Of a stretch of 11,828 bases of DNA, positions 8,492 to 9,583 are shown piece by piece. The stretch is from the NCBI GenBank assembly GCA_902783235.1, contig CACZQG010000042.1:1-11828 (forward strand), written 5' to 3'. Each line of letters begins with the position of its first letter. Position 1 is the first letter of the stretch. The DNA comes from an uncultured Ruminococcus sp. Lineage in GTDB: Bacteria > Bacillota > Clostridia > Oscillospirales > Ruminococcaceae. Position numbers and translations under genes: made by a program. The notes under the pieces are model-generated. The model saw only the letters and a program-made list of their open reading frames with translations. It made no database searches and had not been told where the DNA came from.

Positions 8492-9583
8492 TCAATCACG
8501 CTTTACATCGCATTTGAATGTATTTGTACCGCCTTCATACTTAAAGCTTATATCATGGCAGCATTTTTTTACAATTGCAGAAGACAGCTCATCACCATCG
8601 GAAACAGGATCATAGCGTTTTCCACCGTATGTGGCTTCCAGTGTTACACTGCCATCCGTATCGGATATCTCTGTCATGACATTTATGGGAAATACATCAT
8701 CTTGTGCGGAAATTCCAAGCTTTACAGCCTCTTCAAAAATCAGCATAAGATTGTTTACTGTCTTGTCATGAAGCATATTGTCCCTGCCGAATATCTCCAG
8801 CTTTGATGAGTAGCTGATAAAGTCAAAATCAGTGCTGTCAATAATAAGAGGAAGCTGCTTCAGGCGCTTGATGAATATTCTTGTACGTTCCTTCTTGGGA
8901 GAACCGAATATCTCTTCCGGAGTACCTTCTTCATAGATACCGCCTTCATCCATGTAAAATACTCTGGTGGAAACGTCACGGGCAAATTTCATCTCATGGG
9001 TAACTATCATCATAGTCATGCCTTCCTTTGCAAGGGAACGTATGACCTGGAGTACTTCTCCTACCATAGTAGGGTCAAGAGCGGAGGTGGGCTCGTCAAA
9101 CAGCAGTACATCAGGCTTCATTGCAATGGCTCGTGCAATAGCCACACGCTGTTTCTGACCGCCGGACAGCTCATCGGGATAGTTATCGGCTTTTTCTGCA
9201 AGTCCGACACGCTTGAGAAGCTCTAAACCCGTTTCATATGCCTCCTGTTTTGATTTTTTAAGCAGCTTCATAGGTCCCACCATAATGTTCTCTATTATGG
9301 TAAGATTGGAAAACAGATTGAATGACTGGAAAACCATTCCCATTTTCTGACGGATCTTTTCCATTTTGCATTTTGGATTGGTTATTTCCTCTCCTTCAAA
9401 GATGACCTTTCCCGATGTAGGCGCTTCAAGCTGGTTGAGACAGCGCAGAAGCGTGGATTTACCGGTTCCGGAAGGGCCTATTATGGAAATTATATCTCCC
9501 TTGTTTATCTCAGTGCATACATCCTTCAAGGGAGTGACATTGGGATACTCCTTGCGGAGATGCTGGATCTGTATCATACTCAT
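8492..9583 (-). CDS. Polar amino acid ABC transporter ATPase fused to a degenerate RsbW-like domain
   Basis: Residues 1 to about 242 are a complete GlnQ/ArtP-like ATPase: Walker A GPSGTGKS (36-43), Q-loop Gln86, signature LSGGQKQR (139-146), Walker B VLLFDEP (159-165) and H-loop His196. It powers uptake through the permease encoded just upstream, with a 4-base gene overlap. Family members normally stop near residue 245. Here about 120 further residues (245-363) align with RsbW-type kinases: FEEAVKLGI at the N box, GGKRYDP (320-326) at the G1 box, then AIVKK and FKYEGGTNTF. The N-box Asn is lost (Lys288/Leu289), the ATP-binding Asp is Tyr319, and the G2 glycines are gone, so this tail should not bind ATP. 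It most likely serves as a protein-binding module. The stop lies about 50 bases from the terminator pair shared with the RsbW operon. Confidence 0.92.
   Translation of the reverse strand: MSMIQIQHLRKEYPNVTPLKDVCTEINKGDIISIIGPSGTGKSTLLRCLNQLEAPTSGKVIFEGEEITNPKCKMEKIRQKMGMVFQSFNLFSNLTIIENIMVGPMKLLKKSKQEAYETGLELLKRVGLAEKADNYPDELSGGQKQRVAIARAIAMKPDVLLFDEPTSALDPTMVGEVLQVIRSLAKEGMTMMIVTHEMKFARDVSTRVFYMDEGGIYEEGTPEEIFGSPKKERTRIFIKRLKQLPLIIDSTDFDFISYSSKLEIFGRDNMLHDKTVNNLMLIFEEAVKLGISAQDDVFPINVMTEISDTDGSVTLEATYGGKRYDPVSDGDELSSAIVKKCCHDISFKYEGGTNTFKCDVKRD

Follow-up and report, generated by a model that had tools for sequence, protein, structure and literature searches.

We analyzed an 11,828-nucleotide stretch of DNA from an uncultured Ruminococcus sp. 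(contig CACZQG010000042.1), hereafter the window, in which an open reading frame (ORF) of 363 amino acids encodes an ABC importer ATPase carrying a C-terminal domain related to the serine kinase RsbW. An earlier note, made from the sequence alone, had placed an ATPase with a dead RsbW-like domain at 8492-9583; the ORF list bears out this position, and the strand, absent from that claim, is minus. The first part of the protein (residues 1-238, 8870..9583, minus) is, as the note had it, a normal GlnQ-type ATPase domain. It matches the NCBIfam model PRK09493 (GlnQ) over residues 3-240 with 302 bits, under the model cut-off of 379, and Pfam ABC_tran at 3.8e-37, and the columns of the Walker A, Q-loop, LSGGQ signature, Walker B and H-loop motifs do not vary among 21 aligned full-length proteins, that of the window included. 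The start of the gene overlaps by 4 bases the stop of the gene for its membrane partner, which combines three type-3 substrate-binding domains and a permease domain in one chain and runs past the window edge (9580..11826, minus; Pfam SBP_bac_3 in three stretches and BPD_transp_1). Going by the domain annotation of these substrate-binding domains, the fused protein probably serves a polar amino-acid importer as its motor subunit. The window's own genome has a second copy (L023, 998-4027), a one-chain importer of ~1010 residues that joins substrate-binding domains, permease, ATPase and a lid-less tail, a layout also present in L081, L083, L085, L088, L092 and others.

The phosphatase, kinase and STAS protein of a putative partner switch are encoded together on the plus strand of the window. 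The SpoIIE/RsbU-type PP2C phosphatase (6197..7912; Pfam SpoIIE 1.1e-44) probably has a membrane region, and a HAMP-like stretch in it scores below cut-off (HAMP 0.0061). The RsbW-like serine kinase (7909..8316; Pfam HATPase_c_2 2.7e-24) is intact, with the N-box, G1 and G2 boxes all present in its sequence. The STAS protein (2598..2894; Pfam STAS 3.3e-18, NCBIfam ant_ant_sig 1.1e-19) is of the anti-anti-sigma type, and its SSAGLR loop presumably holds the phosphorylated serine. Passages of PMC11418112 describe known partner switches in which the RsbW kinase releases the sigma factor on binding the unphosphorylated STAS protein, phosphorylation by that kinase reversing the exchange.

An RsbW-fold tail without an ATP site

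The C-terminal domain of the fused protein, hereafter the tail (residues 241-363, 8495..8863, minus), is a lid-less RsbW-fold domain. Its AlphaFold model is complete in fold with a pLDDT of 96.4, and the top structural matches listed by Foldseek and VIA are RsbW, SpoIIAB and UsfX, with the SiaB-SiaC structure 6kko also among the matches. An unrelated fold, for instance that of an ACT or NIL domain (ferredoxin-like), was the outcome that the earlier note had named as speaking against a kinase-like tail; we looked for it by structure prediction and fold search and it did not appear among the matches listed. Profile comparison by hhalign of 43 aligned tails with 12 intact RsbW-type domains gave a probability of 98.3% (E 1.8e-14); two partial tails, the second L018 copy and L096, were left out of this alignment. 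The order of elements in the tails is that of RsbW-type domains. The resemblance of the tail to the RsbW protein of the window, noticed before from short segments, is confirmed by BLASTP at E 1e-4 in a single comparison covering ~60 residues. Other searches were less telling: HATPase_c_2 matched 14 of the 43 tails at E<=0.1, that of the window not among them, a Pfam scan of the window's tail matched nothing real, and phmmer of this tail against the PDB returned aspartokinase alone at E 0.33. In a profile search with the 43 tails the best match, RsbW, had an E of 0.21 and the second, a nickel regulator, one of 0.35, so that this search by itself proves little. Taken as a whole the comparisons support an RsbW fold for the tail and the loss of its ATP site. 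In the full-length model (pLDDT 93.3, pTM 0.85, no residue below 70 pLDDT) the last ATPase helix (232-238) leads directly into the first tail strand (from 241), and on this model the tail is closely attached to the ATPase with no weak linker.

The loss at the ATP site follows the same pattern throughout the 43 tails. The adenine-binding Asp of the G1 box is found in none of them and is replaced by Tyr in 26, Trp in 13 and others in four, including one gap; the window has Tyr. The Mg-binding Asn of the N-box persists in 12 tails and is Leu in the window, the G2 glycine box is absent by alignment, and the lid, counted between the DP motif and the helix that follows, spans 5-12 residues as against 19 in 12 out of 12 intact domains. 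Losses of the Asp, of the Asn (in the window) and of the glycine box thus stand as first described, and a short lid is to be added; what the description lacked is the retention of the N-box Glu, the catalytic base in RsbW, in all 43 tails. The G1 glycine is retained in 39, a [FY]DP loop occurs in many and the Asn of the terminal strand in most, and a Glu and an Asp are invariant. This looks like one shared design rather than scattered damage. Calling the domain dead is accurate for its ATP site and misleading if a relic is meant, because tails from at least 11 families share a uniform lid-less form. Given the lost site, phosphorylation of a STAS serine by the tail is not expected.

Within the window's order, 21 of 394 genomes, belonging to 11 families, have a strong tail-profile match (E<1e-15), and 17 of 297 genomes sampled from the window's family have a match. 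With the cut-off at E<=1e-10, the profile matched 10 of 398 genomes in a phylum sample, where short free domains and a frame of MATE length make up some of the rows. One relative, the sole one from the contig scan, lies on a contig titled Spirochaetales, and one tail fragment carries the name Ruminococcus sp.; a plasmid search gave no match. We built a tree of the ATPase domain from 41 of the 45 fused ATPases and 20 of the 21 best unfused ones (G319 being the omitted unfused row), and one branch with support 98/97 splits the 41 from the 20. This is consistent with a single origin of the fused ATPases but does not establish it because the tree is unrooted. Some copies are rearranged. L018 has a fused-ATPase frame of 194 aa (11825-12406) in which most of the ATPase domain is gone and a near-identical second tail (13654-14010) cut at the contig end, each adjoining a substrate-binding protein gene. 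Two metagenome proteins, both possibly assembly chimeras, join the tail to a different ATPase half (P0005) and to a half with PF08837 (P0007).

Linkage to phosphatase, kinase and STAS genes

The neighbourhoods of 45 fused genes from 36 genomes (44 matched the tail profile at E<1e-15 and one, in a full-length frame, at E 2.5e-9; three of the genes are fragments) were compared with those of all 59 unfused ATPases of the same genomes that matched the window ATPase domain at E<=1e-45 (44-61% identity). Within 10 kb, 20 of the 45 fused genes and none of the 59 unfused ones have a SpoIIE-family gene at E<=1e-10 (p 2.5e-9), and 25 of 45 as against 1 of 59 have a STAS gene (p 8.4e-11); 28 of the 45 have one or both. 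Restricting the controls to the 44 best-scoring ones left the counts at 0 for SpoIIE-family and 1 for STAS. Across the order, a SpoIIE-family gene is present in 19 of the 21 genomes with a fused ATPase and in 69 of the 373 without (p 1.2e-11); this count treats two draws of 394 genomes as one set, and its cut-off of E<=1e-40 was chosen to exclude the sporulation protein SpoIIE.

Annotation of 42 stretches with profiles made from the window's proteins found, within 10 kb, the phosphatase in 19, the kinase in 15, STAS in 23 and all three in 14. Locus L080 reads SBP/permease (substrate-binding protein fused to permease), fused ATPase, STAS, phosphatase, kinase, second SBP, permease and again fused ATPase, and L102 and L108 repeat the gene set of the window including its MATE and GH3 genes. 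STAS genes occur without RsbW or phosphatase genes at some loci (e.g. L021, L082). Out of 161 neighbouring ORFs that had no local annotation, 10 neighbourhood proteins were scanned with Pfam and one was a STAS protein. Three STAS frames of 430-534 aa lie near the L082 importer, and at 9986-11275 of the same locus a protein with a match to leucine carboxyl methyltransferase (LCM, 1.3e-5) in its first part ends in a STAS domain.

A sigma-70 region-2 profile made from 20 PF04542 matches, which recovered 10 out of 10 held-out sequences, was run on 43 stretches of ~6 to 20 kb each and matched in two of them, L101 and L109. It matched in none of the 14 stretches that have phosphatase, kinase and STAS together, where an unlinked sigma factor may still act.

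A proposed docking role for the tail and its alternatives

The reading that we favour, with modest confidence, is that the tail is an RsbW pseudokinase serving as a protein-docking regulatory domain on the importer motor, and that docking of a STAS protein gates uptake. The PP2C phosphatase and the soluble RsbW kinase would set the phosphorylation state of the STAS protein, which in its unphosphorylated form would dock on the lid-less domain, where ATP would be unneeded. The tail would then be, on the simplest reading, a second, non-catalytic STAS receptor. Since tail and ATPase are closely joined with no weak linker, docking could alter the closure of the two ATPase subunits, and uptake would be gated without new transcription; the control might be activating or inhibitory. 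That a STAS protein may gate amino-acid uptake had been suggested before: the recurrence of STAS, phosphatase and kinase genes beside fused genes supplies the context for it, and the docking itself, with its effect on the ATPase cycle, is what we infer. The computed results beneath it are the fold, the loss of the ATP site, a design common to the families, linkage with the switch genes and like domains on other transporters.

Several known systems come near to this proposal. The tails are like RsbW, SpoIIAB and UsfX (HATPase_c_2) in fold, element order, N-box Glu and, mostly, the G1 glycine, and unlike them in the short lid, the missing G2 glycines and adenine Asp, the mostly lost Mg-binding Asn, the fusion to an ABC ATPase and, at the loci with the full gene set, the lack of a sigma-factor match. 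SiaABC-type partner switches have a PP2C phosphatase, an RsbW-fold kinase and a STAS protein, also with no sigma factor, and their output is a diguanylate cyclase, whereas here the candidate outputs are transporters with RsbW-like domains; the phosphatase of the window matches the SiaA model at 4.2e-18, far below the model cut-off. For MlaF-MlaB, passages of PMC7367683 describe a STAS protein, MlaB, that binds an ABC ATPase, MlaF, whose C-terminal extension takes part. That extension has ~25 residues, whereas here an RsbW-fold domain is the proposed STAS receptor, and genes for a kinase and a phosphatase lie near. The same passages report regulatory domains placed C-terminally to the importer ATPases MetN, MalK and ModC, as the tail is, but of ferredoxin-like or TOBE fold, and C-terminal domains of other ABC transporters are thought there to alter ATPase closure. 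The earlier note did not recall such a fusion being described, and our search of open-access full text, a scope outside which most subscription papers and bioRxiv preprints fall, likewise found no paper that describes a transporter with an RsbW-type domain fused to it.

Several observations weigh against gating by a docked STAS protein. The importer genes and the switch operon of the window are convergent rather than co-transcribed. The linkage tests count related loci as independent though many share ancestry, and 17 of the 45 fused genes, on contigs some short and some long, lack both SpoIIE-family and STAS genes within 10 kb. Outside the order the linkage is weak: with the MATE-length frame and frames under 361 aa omitted, one of 10 fused loci has a strong SpoIIE-family gene (E<=1e-40) within 10 kb, all eight genomes searched holding such a gene somewhere. 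Among the PF04542 matches listed, sigma genes lie ~9 and 10 kb from the fused genes of G029 and G473, beyond the scanned stretches and with fused genes outside the 14 full-set loci. Finally, retention of the N-box Glu could be structural.

The 17 loci with neither gene would suit a tail that acts as a dimerizing sensor of a small molecule, e.g. the imported amino acid, bound in the vacated pocket and trans-inhibiting the importer as the C-terminal domains of MetN and ModC do, the STAS neighbours being incidental. The Tyr or Trp that replaces the adenine Asp in 39 of the 43 tails could line such a pocket. The linkage to STAS and SpoIIE-family genes and the presence of related domains on two unrelated transporter classes speak against this alternative, the best surviving one, which we consider unlikely. 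RsbW-type kinases form dimers, and the tail, homologous to that kinase family, might instead pair with the intact RsbW and, tethered to the transporter, modulate the kinase or act as its sink rather than receive STAS. An intact RsbW gene does lie within 10 kb at 15 of 42 loci, but STAS genes are commoner (23 of 42) and stand alone at some loci such as L021 and L082, and this pairing ranks next, as an improbable one. Lower again in probability we place a reversed flow of information, in which the importer does the sensing, the grip of the tail on STAS varies with the transport cycle and the freed STAS acts elsewhere, as in flux-sensing transporters. The close joining of tail and ATPase would allow this, and the eight SpoIIE, seven HATPase_c_2 and six STAS matches in the window's genome leave room for other outputs; against it, the 14 full-set loci have no sigma-factor match and the phosphatase already has a probable sensor region. 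A functionless, decaying remnant of an old fusion would account for the lost ATP site but is very improbable and disfavoured, given a lid-less form shared by 43 tails with an invariant Glu and Asp, a complete modelled fold and the occurrence of the fused gene in 11 families of the order.

If STAS docking on the tail does gate uptake, partner switching, known mainly for sigma-factor release, would also provide fast post-translational control of nutrient uptake, and ABC importers would have a new kind of regulatory domain. It would explain why RsbW-like domains sit on three unrelated transporter classes in these genomes and supply a natural pseudokinase in which the function of an RsbW domain unable to bind ATP could be studied.

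RsbW-like domains on other transporters and neighbouring genes

Five of the 42 stretches have, within 10 kb of the fused ATPase, SDF symporters with an N-terminal RsbW-like domain that lacks the ATP-site Asp (e.g. L016 7634-9208, L104 8074-9663, L094 13234-14847). Aligned over nine rows, three of them from other loci, this domain has the Glu pair in 9/9, the G1 Asp in 0/9 and a lid of 7-15 residues, and hhalign relates it to RsbW-type domains at 97.3% and to the ABC tails at 98.0%. The MATE transporter of the window (2901..4625, plus; Pfam MatE 1.9e-14) carries a second degenerate RsbW-like domain in its C-terminal part (4254-4622, plus), which matches the window RsbW at E 1e-7 (BLASTP) and the ABC-tail profile A3 at E 6.5e-9. 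In one alignment of 15 MATE rows these C-terminal domains are graded from intact (L019) to lid-less (window, L102, L108a). Built from 78 rows and 132 columns, a quick tree that takes in every RsbW-like domain separates the ABC (SH-aLRT 95), RsbW (99) and SDF (99) rows, the MATE rows needing two changes, and cannot order the ABC, RsbW and SDF groups because it has too few columns.

These domains raise the possibility, to which we give a little less than an even chance, that Clostridia and their relatives have a branch of partner switching with transporters as outputs. RsbW-fold docking domains, most without an ATP site, would let a phosphatase-kinase-STAS triplet gate ABC importers, SDF symporters and MATE transporters, and one signal would couple uptake and export with no sigma factor involved.

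Between the MATE and phosphatase genes lies a gene for a GH3-family enzyme (4629..6227, plus; Pfam GH3 1.5e-52), related to a Porcipelethomonas sp. protein with 63% identity over 76%. A GH3 enzyme is also near the fused ABC genes, together with MATE, in L102 and L108. We speculate that GH3 and MATE might make and export an amino-acid conjugate, which would suit a co-controlled amino-acid importer. At the other end of the window, 158-2305 on the minus strand, three successive genes read as resembling radical-SAM, glutathione-peroxidase-like and MarR-like proteins.
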